Source: Thermoleophilia bacterium (lineage in GTDB: Bacteria; Actinomycetota; Thermoleophilia; Gaiellales; JAICJC01). Taken from it: a stretch of 55,216 bases of DNA. The notes beneath the pieces were generated by a model that worked only from the letters and a program-made list of their open reading frames with translations, was not told where the DNA came from and did no database searches. A program made the position numbers and the translations under genes. This document shows positions 20,964 to 26,656 of this stretch, piece after piece. How positions within the stretch are numbered: the first letter of the stretch is position 1; each line of letters starts with the position of its first letter. The stretch covers positions 1-55,216 of the forward strand of contig JAICKX010000008.1 of the NCBI GenBank assembly GCA_025927685.1, read 5' to 3'.

Positions 20964-20990
20964 ATACCCCAACGGGAGGGTATTCGAACC
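20964..20990. repeat. Degenerate tRNA-Glu 3'-end copy A
   Basis: atacccc-aacggg[agggt]attcgaacc, same orientation as tRNA-Glu at 23772-23844. Confidence 0.45.
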
Positions 20991-21228
20991 GCTCGACCTG
21001 GGCCGAACGGCTGGCAGCGCTCCGTCGCTGCCTCGACGAGCCGCCTGCTTAGGTGCCCGCGGGGAGTCGGCCCACCCGTACGAGAAGCCGTCGCAACTCA
21101 GGCCCCACGCCTCCACAGCCGACCACCGCCACACCTTCGCCGACACCAACCGGCCCAACGGCGCAGGGACGCTCGTCCATGTCGGGATCGTGGTCCGACC
21201 TCCCATATGCAGTGCGACAATCAGCTCT

Positions 21229-21783
21229 GTGTTGGAGATCCGGACCGAGCGTCTCGTCTTGCGTCGACCTCGTCTCGAGGATGTGCCGGCGATCGTCCTC
21301 GCGTGCCAGGACCCCGACGTTCCTCGTTTCATGCCGGAGGTGTCGACCCCGTACGGGGAGCAGGACGCGCGCAGATTTATCGCGTCCGTAGACCGGGCCT
21401 GGAGAGAGTCGCATGAGCGAACCTTTGCGATTGCCGGAGGGGATGACGTCTATCTCGGATCTGTGTCGGTCGCGCTCCGCGAAGGCGGCAACGTCGGGTA
21501 CATGCTGTCTCGGTCTGCTCGTGGGCACGGCTTCACGACAGAGGCGGTTCGTGCTGTCGTGCGTTGGGCGCACGAACTGCATGGCATCCAATCGCTGCAA
21601 CTCTGGACACATCCCGACAACCTGGCCTCGCAGGTTGTCGCGGAACGTGCTGGCTTCGCGCGCCTCGGAGAGAGACGTTGCGACACGCCCTTTCGGGATG
21701 GGTCGACGGTCGGGATTCTCTTCGAGACAGTGATCCAGCGAAGAGCCCTGGCTGATCCCTCGCCCGCCGGGCATCCGGGCTGA
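21229..21783 (+). CDS. GNAT acetyltransferase (RimJ/RimL type)
   Basis: LEIRTERLVLRRPRLEDVPAIVLA...VGYMLSRSARGHGFTTEAVRAVVRWAHELHGIQSLQLWTHPDNLASQVVAERAGF. Confidence 0.88.
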   Translation: MLEIRTERLVLRRPRLEDVPAIVLACQDPDVPRFMPEVSTPYGEQDARRFIASVDRAWRESHERTFAIAGGDDVYLGSVSVALREGGNVGYMLSRSARGHGFTTEAVRAVVRWAHELHGIQSLQLWTHPDNLASQVVAERAGFARLGERRCDTPFRDGSTVGILFETVIQRRALADPSPAGHPG

Positions 21784-21792
21784 GATCGCCGC

Positions 21793-21827
21793 CAAGCAAT
21801 ACCCCCAAACGAGACGGCATTCGAACC
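21793..21827. repeat. Degenerate tRNA-Glu 3'-end copy B
   Basis: caagcaatacccccaa is identical over 16 bp to the tRNA-Glu 3' flank/acceptor (23765-23780), followed by ...cggcattcgaacc. Confidence 0.6.
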
Positions 21828-21982
21828 TGGTGGAGCTCTTGCGGGCGCTCGGCCGCGGATCGCCTCGCGGCTAGCTCGGCCGGGCATGGTTCCCGCCAGC
21901 GCACGGGGCACCTTTGCGCATGCATGGCTGACCGGCGCCGGAGCGGGCAGGCGTTTGCTGTCCGTGCCTCACGCGCAGCGGT

Positions 21983-22444
21983 CTAGCGAGCTCTGTGCTC
22001 GCCCTTGGTCGCGAGGGTTTCGCGGAGGCGAGCGATGACCTCGTCCAGGCCGCGGGTGAAGCCGCGGAACGTTGTCGCCGGCATGTCGTCGAAGATCTTG
22101 TGCGCGAGTGCGATGTGGTCGCGCTCGAGCGCCCTCGACGCTCGTTCGCCCTTCTTGGTGAAGGTGACGAGTGCTGCCCTGCGGTCGTGCGGGTGTGGTT
22201 CACGGGTGACGAAGCCGCGGGCGACGAGCCCGTCGACGAGGCCCGTGATCGTGCGCGGCGATACGCCGAGCGCTTTGGCGAGCCCGTTTTGGGTCCTCGG
22301 GCTGCCGTCACGTAGCTCCCAGATGAGATGTGCGCGCGAGCCCGTGAGTCCGCGGCGGGCAAGATCGCGCGCCATGTCGTCATTCAGAAGGACCGTCAAC
22401 TCCAGGATTCGGTTGAGGGCGTGACGGCTGTCGTCGAGTCCCAT
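21983..22444 (-). CDS. MarR-family transcriptional regulator
   Basis: NGLAKALGVSPRTITGLVDGLVARGFVTREPHPHDRRAALVTFTKKG. Confidence 0.92.
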   Translation of the reverse strand: MGLDDSRHALNRILELTVLLNDDMARDLARRGLTGSRAHLIWELRDGSPRTQNGLAKALGVSPRTITGLVDGLVARGFVTREPHPHDRRAALVTFTKKGERASRALERDHIALAHKIFDDMPATTFRGFTRGLDEVIARLRETLATKGEHRAR

Positions 22445-22481
22445 TGCGTGATCTCCGTGGCTACCGACCCTCCGGTCTATG

Positions 22482-22513
22482 ATGAGCATAGCTCATAGTG
22501 AGCTAGACTCATA
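22482..22513. promoter_or_regulatory. Overlapping palindromic MarR operator candidate
   Basis: ATGAGC-ATA-GCTCAT (22482-22496) overlapping AGCTCA-TAG-TGAGCT (22490-22504), between divergent MarR and SnoaL-like genes. Confidence 0.65.
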
Positions 22514-22551
22514 ATATTGTCTCGCGTTGTTCCCCAAGATCGGAGGGTGTC

Positions 22552-22962
22552 GTGTCCGCTGAGACAGAAGCCAACGTCGACCTTGTCCGCGTTGCCCGCG
22601 AGGCCTTCAACGCGAACGACCTCGACGCCTGCGTCGAGCGACTCGCCCCCGATGTAATCCAGCATCTGTCCGAGCTGCGAGAGCCGCGCGTGGGGCGTGA
22701 CACCTGGCGCGAGGGCGCTGAGCTGATCAAAAAGGCCTTTCCCGATCTGACCGTCGAGATCGACGACGTCGTCGCCGAACGGGATCGTGTGGCGCTGCGG
22801 CTCACCATCCGCGGCACCCACCAAAGTGAGTTCCTGGGCATTGCCGCGACCGGTCGCTCGGTGAGCTATGTGAGTCACGAGTTCTATCGTGTGGCCGATG
22901 GGCTGATCGCCGAGGAGTGGATCTGCTCCGACACTGCGGGCCTGTTCGAGCAGATCAGGTGA
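22552..22962 (+). CDS. SnoaL-like ester cyclase-family protein
   Basis: LVRVAREAFNANDLDACVERLAPDVIQH...WREGAELIKKAFPDLTVEIDDVVAERDRVALRLTIRGTHQSEFLGI. Confidence 0.85.
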   Translation: MSAETEANVDLVRVAREAFNANDLDACVERLAPDVIQHLSELREPRVGRDTWREGAELIKKAFPDLTVEIDDVVAERDRVALRLTIRGTHQSEFLGIAATGRSVSYVSHEFYRVADGLIAEEWICSDTAGLFEQIR

Positions 22963-23612
22963 TGCAGTCCCGCGCAACTCCGAAGCGGCTGAGGCAGGCC
23001 GGCTCCGCATCCTCCGGCCGCGCTGCTCTCCGCCACGCCGCCCGCTATGAGGCTGGGATCTGGGGCAGCCTCGTCCGCTGGCTCACTCGCCGGGTACGCG
23101 CCATCGACCCGGACGCCGAGCTGTTTGGCTACGCATCCGAGATCACGCCGATCCTGGTCGCGTTCATCGCGGTCGCCGCGCTGGAGATCCCGATCCTGCC
23201 GCTCGTTCTCCCGTGGCCTCCAGTGAGATACACGCTGCTTGTGCTCGGAATATGGGGCCTTCTCTGGATGGCTGGACTGCTCGCCTCCTTGCGCGTTCAC
23301 CCTCACGCGGTCGCCGCCGCCGGACTGCAACTCCGCTCCGGATTCCAAATCGACCTCCGCGTCCCGTGGGCCGAAATCACCGACATCCGTCTGTGCCGCG
23401 CCAGCACAGAGCGAAAACTCGAAGTCGAGCAGGGCCCGGCCGGTGCAGCGCTCTCACTCCAGAAGACGACGAACCTCGAGGTCGCGCTTCGCCGATCGCT
23501 CATGGTCAGCTTCCTCGATGGCCGCTCCGCCAACATCGACGCGATCCGCGTATACGCCGACGCACCAGGCGAGCTCGTGTCGGCAGCGCGACCCCATCTA
23601 ACTCCGCACTGA
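22962..23612 (+). CDS. Membrane protein (PH-domain-like)
   Basis: Start overlaps the upstream stop (TGATG); two hydrophobic segments and a C-terminal soluble domain. Confidence 0.65.
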   Translation: MQSRATPKRLRQAGSASSGRAALRHAARYEAGIWGSLVRWLTRRVRAIDPDAELFGYASEITPILVAFIAVAALEIPILPLVLPWPPVRYTLLVLGIWGLLWMAGLLASLRVHPHAVAAAGLQLRSGFQIDLRVPWAEITDIRLCRASTERKLEVEQGPAGAALSLQKTTNLEVALRRSLMVSFLDGRSANIDAIRVYADAPGELVSAARPHLTPH

Positions 23613-23771
23613 AGGTTTGGTGGAACCGCGATCCACCCGGGTCTAGCGGCCCACGGGCCTCCAGCGGCATACGACGGCCACGCCCGAGCTAGGCGCGTGC
23701 CTGACGTGTGGCCCAGACCGACTCACACGGGAATACGCCGGCCCCAGCTCCCGGCACCAGTAAGCAAGCAA

Positions 23772-23844
23772 TACCCCCAACGGGATTCGAACCCGTGTTA
23801 CCGCCTTGAAAGGGCGGGGGCCTAGGCCGCTAGCCGATGGGGGC
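23772..23844 (-). tRNA. tRNA-Glu (UUC)
   Basis: GCCCCCA acceptor, CCGCC-CTTTCAA-GGCGG anticodon arm, ACGGG-TTCGAAT-CCCGT T arm. Confidence 0.95.
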
Positions 23845-23862: not shown

Positions 23863-24042
23863 TCAGGCTGCGTCGTCCGGCCGTGCCGGAAGGCGTTCCA
23901 GCGCCGCCTGGAGCTCGTCCCAGGCCTCAGCCTCCGTCTCGGCGTAGTCCGCGGCGTCCACCTCACGGGTCAGCTCGAGGTACCGCTGCCAGGCGGCTTC
24001 GCGAGTGAGCGGAAGGATCGTTGCGGGCTTGCCGGAGGTCAT
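23863..24042 (-). CDS. Small acidic hypothetical protein, 59 aa
   Basis: MTSGKPATILPLTREAAWQRYLELTREVDAADYAETEAEAWDELQAALERLPARPDDAA*; below the ORF-track length cut-off. Confidence 0.55.
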   Translation of the reverse strand: MTSGKPATILPLTREAAWQRYLELTREVDAADYAETEAEAWDELQAALERLPARPDDAA

Positions 24043-24093
24043 TGCTCTTAATACGTTCGCGGGGGTGAGGTAGTTCCCGCCCCGTGGGCAGCA

Positions 24094-25107
24094 TTACACA
24101 TGTGGGCGGCCGTCATGCTCCGGTTGCGGCGCCCGCCCGGTGCGCGCGAGCGCCAGCCCGGACAGGACTTCGAGCACCAGCCGGTGGGCGTTCACGGCCG
24201 TGATCCCGGACGGGTCGTAGGCCGGCGCCACCTCGACCAGCTCGACCCCGGCGATGGGCAGCTCGGTGGCGATCCGGCGGGCGGCGCGCAGCAGCTCGCG
24301 CATCGTGAGGCCGCCCACCTCCGGGGTCCCGGTGCCCGGCGCGTAGGCGGGGTCGAGGGCGTCGACGTCGATCGAGAGGAACACCGGTTGGCCCCACTCG
24401 TGGGCGCTTCGGATGACCTCCGAGAGGCACACGTCGAAGCCGCGCTCGTCGAGCTCGTACATCGTGTACCAGTGGAACCCGACCTTGCGCATCCACGCGA
24501 ACTCGTCGGGGTCGGGCCACCAGCCGCGCAGGCCGACCTGGATGAACCGGTCGCCCCGCACCCAGCCCTCGTCGACGACGAGCCGCATCGGCGTGCCGTG
24601 GGAGCGGACGACGCCGCGCAGGTCGGCGGCGGTGTCGGCGTGTGCGTCGAAGTGGATGACGCCGACCGCGCCCTTCCCGCGGTGCTCGGCGACCGCAGCC
24701 ATGTTCGGGTGGGCGATGGAGTGGTCGCCGCCGAGCACGATCGGCACCGCGCCCGCGGCGCAGATCTCGCCAACGCGACGGCGGATCTGGGTGTGACTCT
24801 CCGCGGCGTTTCCGGGCACGGTCTCGGCGTCGCCGTAGTCGACGACGCGGAGCTCGGCGAACGGGTCGACGCCGAGCCACATGTGCGGCCGCGACGGTGG
24901 CACGCCGGCCGAGTCGTCGGCCGCGCGGATCGCGCGCGGGCCGTACCGGCTCCCGGGCCGGTTCGACACGGTCTCGTCGATCGGCGCCCCCAGGATGGCG
25001 ACGTCGACGCCGGCCAGGCCGTGCGGGTCGAGCACGAGCGGCAGCTTCGAGAAGGTGGGGATGCCGCCGTAGGAGGGCTCGTGGGGGCGGTTGGCCTGCA
25101 TGCTCAC
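24094..25107 (-). CDS. speB: Ureohydrolase family protein (agmatinase-like)
   Basis: GGDHSIAHPNM, HFDAHADTA, SIDVDALDPAYAPGTGTPEVGG metal-binding motifs. Confidence 0.9.
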   Translation of the reverse strand: MSMQANRPHEPSYGGIPTFSKLPLVLDPHGLAGVDVAILGAPIDETVSNRPGSRYGPRAIRAADDSAGVPPSRPHMWLGVDPFAELRVVDYGDAETVPGNAAESHTQIRRRVGEICAAGAVPIVLGGDHSIAHPNMAAVAEHRGKGAVGVIHFDAHADTAADLRGVVRSHGTPMRLVVDEGWVRGDRFIQVGLRGWWPDPDEFAWMRKVGFHWYTMYELDERGFDVCLSEVIRSAHEWGQPVFLSIDVDALDPAYAPGTGTPEVGGLTMRELLRAARRIATELPIAGVELVEVAPAYDPSGITAVNAHRLVLEVLSGLALARTGRAPQPEHDGRPHV

Positions 25108-25751
25108 TCCTCGATCGTTTCATGGAACAGCCGCGGGTCGTCGGTGATGACGCCGTCGCAGCCGAGCGCCGCCATGCGCTTGATCCCGGCACGGGTGTTC
25201 ACGGTCCAGGCGAAGACGCGGCCGCCGGCCGTGTGGACGGCCGCGACCGCGGCGGCGGTGACGACGTCGTGGCGCAGGGTGGCGTCACGGGCGCCCGACT
25301 TGCGGTAGATGTCGGCGAGCGTCACGCGGCTCCGGGACACCCGTCGGCCGGGCCTGATCGTGACGCTCGTCCGGGCGTGGCCGTTCAGCGCGGAGAGCGA
25401 CGCGGTGTTGCCTGTCGAGAAGACGCAGCAATCTGCGATCCCCGCCGCCTCACAGGCCGCGAGCGTCGCGCGCTCGTACCCGGCCGCCTTGAGGTCGACC
25501 AGGAACCCGAGATCGGGCGGAGCCAGCTCGAGGAGCTGCACGACGAACTCCGGCAGGGGCAGCCCGCGCCGACCGGCGTCGTGCCCGACCACGAGCCCGG
25601 GCGCCACGTCGAACTCGACCATGTCCACCCCCGCCCCGATCGCCGCTCGCATCGCGGCGATCGTGTTCTCGGGCGCGAGCCCGGCCGCGCCGCGATGCCC
25701 GATGCGCAGCACCGCCGTGAACCTACCAGCGTCGCGCCCAACCGGGAGCAC
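25104..25751 (-). CDS. Glycerophosphodiester phosphodiesterase-family protein
   Basis: RIGHRGAAGLAPENTIAAMRAAIGAGVDMVEFDV...VFAWTVNTRAGIKRMAALGCDGVITDDP. Confidence 0.9.
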   Translation of the reverse strand: MLPVGRDAGRFTAVLRIGHRGAAGLAPENTIAAMRAAIGAGVDMVEFDVAPGLVVGHDAGRRGLPLPEFVVQLLELAPPDLGFLVDLKAAGYERATLAACEAAGIADCCVFSTGNTASLSALNGHARTSVTIRPGRRVSRSRVTLADIYRKSGARDATLRHDVVTAAAVAAVHTAGGRVFAWTVNTRAGIKRMAALGCDGVITDDPRLFHETIEE

Positions 25752-26583: not shown

Positions 26584-26656
26584 GGGCCGTTAGCTCAGCT
26601 GGTAGAGCAGGGGACTTTTAATCCCAAGGTCGCTGGTTCGATCCCAGCACGGCCCA
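26584..26656 (+). tRNA. tRNA-Lys (UUU)
   Basis: GGGCCGT acceptor/ACGGCCC, anticodon loop CTTTTAA, T loop GGTTCGATCCC. Confidence 0.95.

Follow-up and report, generated by a model that had tools for sequence, protein, structure and literature searches.

Behind an intact tRNA-Glu gene of a Thermoleophilia bacterium, two displaced copies of the 3' end of this tRNA bound two small gene cassettes, which raises the question of how these entered the locus and by which enzyme they were moved. The window analysed here is one whole contig of 55,216 nucleotides from a 3.34-Mb draft genome that is 82% complete and consists of 198 contigs (the home genome, G000). The locus is laid out as follows:

20964..20990, minus strand: copy A, tRNA-Glu 3' end lacking one G, in which TTCGAAT is followed by 5 extra bases (ACCCT)
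20991..21792, no strand assigned: cassette 2, 0.80 kb, GC 0.660, integrase trace absent
21190..21783, plus strand: GNAT acetyltransferase of cassette 2 (PF13302, 6.1e-28)
21793..21827, minus strand: copy B, tRNA-Glu 3' end and 7 flanking bases, in which TTCGAAT is followed by about 6 extra bases
21828..23771, no strand assigned: cassette 1, 1.94 kb, GC 0.663, integrase trace absent
21983..22489, minus strand: MarR-family regulator of cassette 1 (PF12802, 2.7e-13)
22552..22962, plus strand: SnoaL-like protein of cassette 1 (PF07366, 1.7e-37)
22962..23612, plus strand: probable membrane protein of cassette 1, no Pfam match
23772..23844, minus strand: intact tRNA-Glu (anticodon TTC), the probable integration target (ARAGORN; Rfam tRNA match)
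23866..24045, minus strand: ORF of about 60 aa upstream of the tRNA, member of the conserved anchor
25104..25751, minus strand: GDPD-family phosphodiesterase of the conserved anchor, with a counterpart in G002 that is 59% identical
26584..26656, plus strand: tRNA-Lys (TTT), conserved anchor (ARAGORN; ortholog in L036 and L037)

The original prediction had described three tRNA-Glu 3' ends in the same orientation, and this is borne out by the ARAGORN call for the tRNA and by the distribution of GGTTCGAAT, which occurs in the 55-kb window at only three sites, all on the minus strand (23793, 21827 and 20990); TTGGGGGTATTGCTTG occurs in the window twice, at 23780 and 21808. Both displaced copies are thus located downstream of tRNA-Glu and on its strand. 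In a BLAST search within the window, copy B matched the tRNA 3' end together with 7 flanking bases at E 2e-4. Copy A, which spans the T loop to the 3' end and whose missing G is one of the acceptor run, gave on its own a weak match (E 0.46) in the same search; this poor score, and the similarity of T-arm sequences between tRNAs in general, are in favour of repeats that arose by chance, or by local tandem duplication of tRNA 3' ends, with no relation to mobile DNA. The 22-mer TTCGAATACCCTCCCGTTGGGG of copy A is expected 0.00 times after shuffling, and among 129 genomes of the order it is matched exactly in the home genome and in G002, a member of the same genus, only, in both cases downstream of tRNA-Glu; one more of the 129 genomes matches the motif with three mismatches. 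A search of the 82%-complete home assembly for more GGTTCGAAT..TTGGGGNTAT copies found none, and scans of genome and viral collections gave no match to the degenerate copy motif. Matches to the tRNA tail at contig ends of G004 were discarded, as they were tRNA-Leu.

The gene content proposed for the two segments was largely confirmed by Pfam: a GNAT gene, whose stop codon lies 9 bp from copy B, is enclosed by copies A and B, and MarR and SnoaL genes are enclosed by copy B and the tRNA, whereas the membrane gene predicted next to them is indicated by hydrophobic stretches in its sequence only. Both cassettes have a GC content of about 0.66, compared with about 0.73 in the 10-kb flanks; because 8-10% of the windows of equal length in the contig have a GC content as low as this, the difference is weakly supportive of a foreign origin.

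The surroundings of the locus are conserved on one side of the tRNA and variable on the other. The order tRNA-Lys, GDPD gene, 60-aa ORF and tRNA-Glu is kept in G002, and tRNA-Lys and the small ORF are also kept in G003, which belongs to another genus. An agmatinase-family gene (24094-25107) separates the 60-aa ORF from the GDPD gene in the window and is missing at the equivalent place in G002; this gene was rejected as a synteny anchor, as it is a divergent paralog. Downstream of tRNA-Glu, the content of the home genome and of G002 is wholly different. Behind its tRNA, G002 has genes for a response regulator and a histidine kinase, two ABC-transporter genes and then copy A' GGTTCGAATACCCTCCCGTTGGGGGTA, a version of copy A that includes the identical ACCCT insert. 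About 28 bp beyond A' lies the stop codon of a truncated tyrosine recombinase (PF00589, a C-terminal remnant), whose gene points towards A'. The surroundings of A and A' are unrelated, and the match is confined to about 24 bp. The same variant site with different cargo in two species, and with a recombinase next to it, is the strongest sign that copy A probably represents the remnant of an attachment site. The recombinase remnant itself had no match in a scan of genome contigs. Since the left flank of tRNA-Glu is scattered in G002, no clean empty site was found for the tRNA-Glu locus itself in the comparison with this genome. A response regulator and histidine kinase pair near tRNA-Glu in both G000 and G002 was dropped as common content, as the best match of the window's pair is located elsewhere in G002 (C44, 73%). 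In G003, tRNA-Glu is followed immediately by the start of a GNAT-like gene (L037, 9617-9800), where the contig ends; this start is 46% identical to the GNAT protein of the window over 37 aa.

The arrangement at tRNA-Glu is not a single case. We located tRNAs with the Rfam model and searched the downstream DNA of nearly all of them (in G001, of all but a few) over at most 10 kb, with a query made of the final 45 bases of the tRNA in question and 15 bases of flank; the three genomes of the genus (G000, G001, G002) are drafts, in which distal copies on other contigs are missed, and the counts are lower bounds. In the home genome, 8 of 41 tRNAs have a copy downstream on the same strand, with 10 copies in total (Glu B; Phe +932; Gly +3421; Pro(tgg) +1617; Thr +5525; Ala +173 and +4168; Leu +3944; Asp +1958 and +4712) in addition to Glu copy A, which falls below the cut-off. 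Copies were present at 6 of 44 tRNAs in G001 and at 4 of 44 in G002 (one of them, at tRNA-His, short and doubtful), where A' also falls below the cut-off. The pattern is genus-wide; by comparison, copies were detected at only two out of 45 tRNAs in the complete genome G009, from another family. Cassettes range from 0.8 to 5.5 kb in size, and several distal copies are perfect over 41-46 bp. The upstream control gave no copies in the genus over about 567 kb searched, the opposite-strand control gave two matches, both at one palindrome by tRNA-Ala, and mismatched pairs of tRNA and locus yielded 3 matches in 2.98 Mb versus 20 for matched pairs in 1.02 Mb. Site-specific insertion as such is a known process; its density and small scale in the home genome are unusual.

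Several individual loci deserve a description of their own. A second tandem in the home genome is found at tRNA-Asp (L096, G000:C43, 6106-11016), where the order behind the tRNA is an integrase remnant containing a stop, AbiEi, a probably truncated AbiEii and an exact 46-bp copy, and beyond this a methyltransferase and a LuxR gene and then a degenerate 37-bp copy. At tRNA-Tyr of G001 (L203, G001:C163), a perfect 41-bp copy at +2921 bounds a 2.9-kb cassette that carries a gene of possible phage origin. Stacking and decay are illustrated in stages by the tRNA-Asp locus of G057 (L052, G057:C10, 7270-11987), in which tRNA-Asp and an adjacent frameshifted integrase are followed by a 3.2-kb cassette, a perfect 51-bp copy and an intact-looking integrase of 438 aa. 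At tRNA-Ala(cgc) of the home genome (L078, G000:C183, 10009-10216), a long inverted repeat is followed by a perfect 36-bp copy of the 3' end only 173 bp away, which is either a gene-free mini-segment or a local duplication.

For one cassette a precise empty site exists in a relative. At tRNA-Lys(ctt) of G002, an exact copy of 45 bp is found at +1358; the DNA beyond it is 84% identical over 8.6 kb to G001, beginning 52 bp after the tRNA-Lys of that genome, and the upstream sides of the tRNA are orthologous in the two genomes (85%). A 1.36-kb cassette was therefore inserted exactly at the 3' end of tRNA-Lys(ctt); it carries a HicA-like gene that scores below Pfam's cut-off. Looser support for empty sites was obtained at Phe, Ala(tgc) and Asp. 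The T stem of this tRNA-Lys(ctt) (L117, G002, 2026-2098) reads GAAGG/CCTTC in the tRNA and in its displaced copy, and ATAGG/CCTAT in G001 and G000, a paired change which hints that an element may have replaced the 3' part of the tRNA.

An origin of the repeats by chance or by local duplication is at odds with the strong strand and side bias and the near-zero controls, and equally with the unrelated cargo between the repeats, the empty site and the identical copy A in G002. For the set as a whole this explanation is refuted, and we give it next to no credence; among the individual cases, two have very short spacers (173 bp and 68 bp) and may have originated by local duplication.

The explanation that we consider highly probable is serial site-specific insertion at tRNA 3' ends by small elements that now lack an integrase; these would either have been moved by a helper or have lost an enzyme of their own. 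A circular DNA carrying a tRNA 3' end (attP) would recombine with the corresponding part of the tRNA gene (attB); the incoming copy would restore the tRNA, and the old 3' end would be displaced outwards, first copy A and then copy B. By this order of insertion the cassette next to the tRNA, with the MarR, SnoaL and membrane genes, would be the younger one. As for the enzyme, the most likely candidate is a tyrosine integrase of the class with a crossover near the junction of T stem and acceptor, encoded outside the cassettes; it may have been supplied in trans by a helper element, in a manner resembling CIMEs or satellites, or may have belonged to the element itself and been deleted later. The serial integration at tRNA-Glu that had been proposed is largely supported by copies that are found downstream and on the same strand only, by the variant copy of G002 beside a recombinase remnant, by the same architecture at seven other tRNAs of the home genome and by the precise empty site in a relative.

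The extent of the copies is informative about the crossover. Those at Asp, Leu, Lys, Tyr, Val, Ala(tgc) and the Phe of G001 start in the anticodon arm and stop at the tRNA end, and a start in the T arm is seen for those at Glu, Gly, Thr, Asn, Pro and the Phe of G000 and for the second Ala copy. Of the latter group, the copies at Gly and Thr, Glu B and the second Ala copy extend 7-15 bases beyond the tRNA end. Islander distinguishes two crossover classes of tRNA integrases, A (anticodon) and J (junction of T stem and acceptor) (PMC4383910). As judged from their starts, the copies fit these two classes, which argues for ordinary tyrosine integrases as the probable movers.

A peculiar feature is the insert of 5 or 6 extra bases at the same spot in Glu A, A' and B and in the second Ala copy (AGTGA), which in A, A' and B is not predicted by simple strand exchange. 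No other insert lengths from 1 to 15 were seen in displaced copies; the numbers are small, with two tRNA species and three or four independent sites. If the crossover takes place at the junction, whatever lies to its left in a displaced copy is derived from the element and therefore need not retain tRNA function, so that extra bases are permitted; this does not explain why the length of 5-6 recurs. The insert as a product of strand exchange in the T loop was rejected, as the sequence to the right of such a crossover would derive from the old, functional tRNA.

The absence of integrases that the original prediction had noted holds; they may have been lost after insertion, as it proposed, or may never have been carried. 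With a tyrosine-integrase profile built from 13 sequences of these genomes, scanned against all six frames of about 47 kb of cassettes, no trace was found in either Glu cassette, and the sole match was the remnant with a stop in the first cassette behind tRNA-Asp; high scores were obtained for two positive controls. Nearly all cassettes are thus devoid of integrase traces. In the home genome and in G002, PF00589 matches comprise Xer-like proteins and fragments, and those that are not Xer-like are fragments only; one such remnant, with an open frame of 86 aa, lies directly behind tRNA-Pro(cgg) (L089, G000:C67), where no displaced copy was found within 10 kb. In G001 longer PF00589 matches were detected, one of them intact and directly behind a tRNA (G001:C16). 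An intact helper integrase for tRNA-Glu was not found, the home draft being 82% complete and in 198 contigs. Serine recombinases number one each in the home genome and G001 and none in G002, and are for this reason not favoured as the general mover.

Within the preferred reading, it is possible, though less likely than not, that the cassettes are what is left of ordinary, larger elements, which retained their cargo and lost their own integrase by deletion once inserted. The remnant integrases at Asp, Pro(cgg) and the Glu locus of G002 show that decay also happens, and broken and intact-looking integrases surround the tRNA-Asp copy of G057. In contrast, the cassettes measure just 0.8-5.5 kb, and those whose distal copies are perfect over 41-46 bp look recent and yet carry no integrase trace. 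These copies are free to mutate, and neutral flanks have diverged by 16% between G001 and G002; perfect repeats therefore suggest recent insertion, which would favour mobilisation by a helper in at least some cases.

The original prediction had offered an unrecognised cassette system as the alternative. This is not required, as integrase-free cassettes bounded by tRNA ends have already been described (additive flexible islands, CIMEs). A dedicated system resembling integrons, in which a trans-acting recombinase recognises tRNA 3' ends in general, would account for the use of many different tRNAs, for cassettes of 1-4 genes without an integrase inside, for identical att variants around different cargo in two species, and for a home genome and G002 in which tyrosine recombinases other than Xer-like ones are fragments and serine recombinases number 1 and 0. 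The repeats, however, fall into the two crossover classes of ordinary tRNA integrases, and remnants of such integrases are found at the same kinds of sites; we regard a dedicated system as very unlikely. As regards the IntI integrase and attC sites that define integron gene cassettes, the PF00589 matches of the 82%-complete home genome are Xer-like proteins and fragments. The wider idea of a genus-wide, integron-like traffic of integrase-free cassettes of 1-4 genes, in which trans-acting recombinases would use many tRNA 3' ends and the spacer of 5-6 bp would be a mark or functional part of the att site, is unlikely as well, if a little less so.

Among known systems, the Glu-locus cassettes belong to the kind described as additive islands or CIMEs, and are notable for their spread over many tRNAs and their small size. 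In the accretion models reviewed in PMC5704250 (after Pavlovic 2004 and Bellanger 2011), CIMEs are tandem segments bounded by att sites and lacking integration genes. The Glu cassettes likewise have flanking repeats of the attL/attR type, carry no integration or transfer genes and are stacked in tandem at one target gene; unlike CIMEs, the cassettes found here are smaller and occur at many targets, and their ICE/IME origin and mobilisation are putative, with remnant integrases at Asp, Pro(cgg) and the Glu locus of G002 and none in the Glu cassettes of the window. Small tRNA-bounded cassettes form the additive islands of marine Actinobacteria (Ca. Actinomarinales; PMC7771536), and in fGI-2 of Methylophilaceae such additive cassettes are as small as 330 bp (PMC10872708). 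As in these islands, direct repeats of the tRNA end stand at the ends of the cassettes as displaced tRNA pieces, sizes go down to a few hundred bp and content varies among relatives; unlike them, where cassettes are concentrated in one or a few islands, single cassettes are found here at many different tRNAs, and the insert of 5-6 bp is present in distal copies at two of these. The ssrA islands of Dehalococcoides (PMC3146451) are similar in that tandem islands bounded by 20-bp repeats, some of them without an integration module, lie downstream of a tRNA-like gene; they differ in using serine recombinases and the tmRNA gene only. Tycheposons (PMC10872708) also insert cargo at tRNA genes; they are 4-200 kb in size and carry a tyrosine recombinase, unlike the Glu cassettes of 0.8 and 1.9 kb, which have none. 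The tRNA genomic islands collected by Islander (PMC4383910) share with the Glu locus an intact tRNA and a displaced 3' fragment downstream on the same strand, as well as the A and J classes; Islander in addition demands an integrase inside the element and a length of at least 2 kb, and both Glu cassettes (1.94 and 0.80 kb) lack the former and fall short of the latter.

Surveys of the Islander type, which demand an integrase and at least 2 kb, would thus filter out almost all cassettes found here. Their cargo includes, apart from that of the Glu locus, a Rieske protein, NAD-binding and cyclase/ATPase proteins, a short-chain dehydrogenase, STAS and HATPase regulators, a BTAD regulator, TetR with an oxidoreductase, AbiEi/AbiEii, a methyltransferase with a LuxR regulator, Fic and a ferritin-like protein. 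Provided that the genus is typical, tRNA cassettes of small size and without an integrase would represent an under-counted route into bacterial genomes for single genes such as acetyltransferases, toxin-antitoxin and Fic genes and regulators. Handles on the question of which enzyme moves such enzyme-less DNA are offered by the recurrent +5 insert and by the 1.36-kb cassette at tRNA-Lys, for which an empty site exists.
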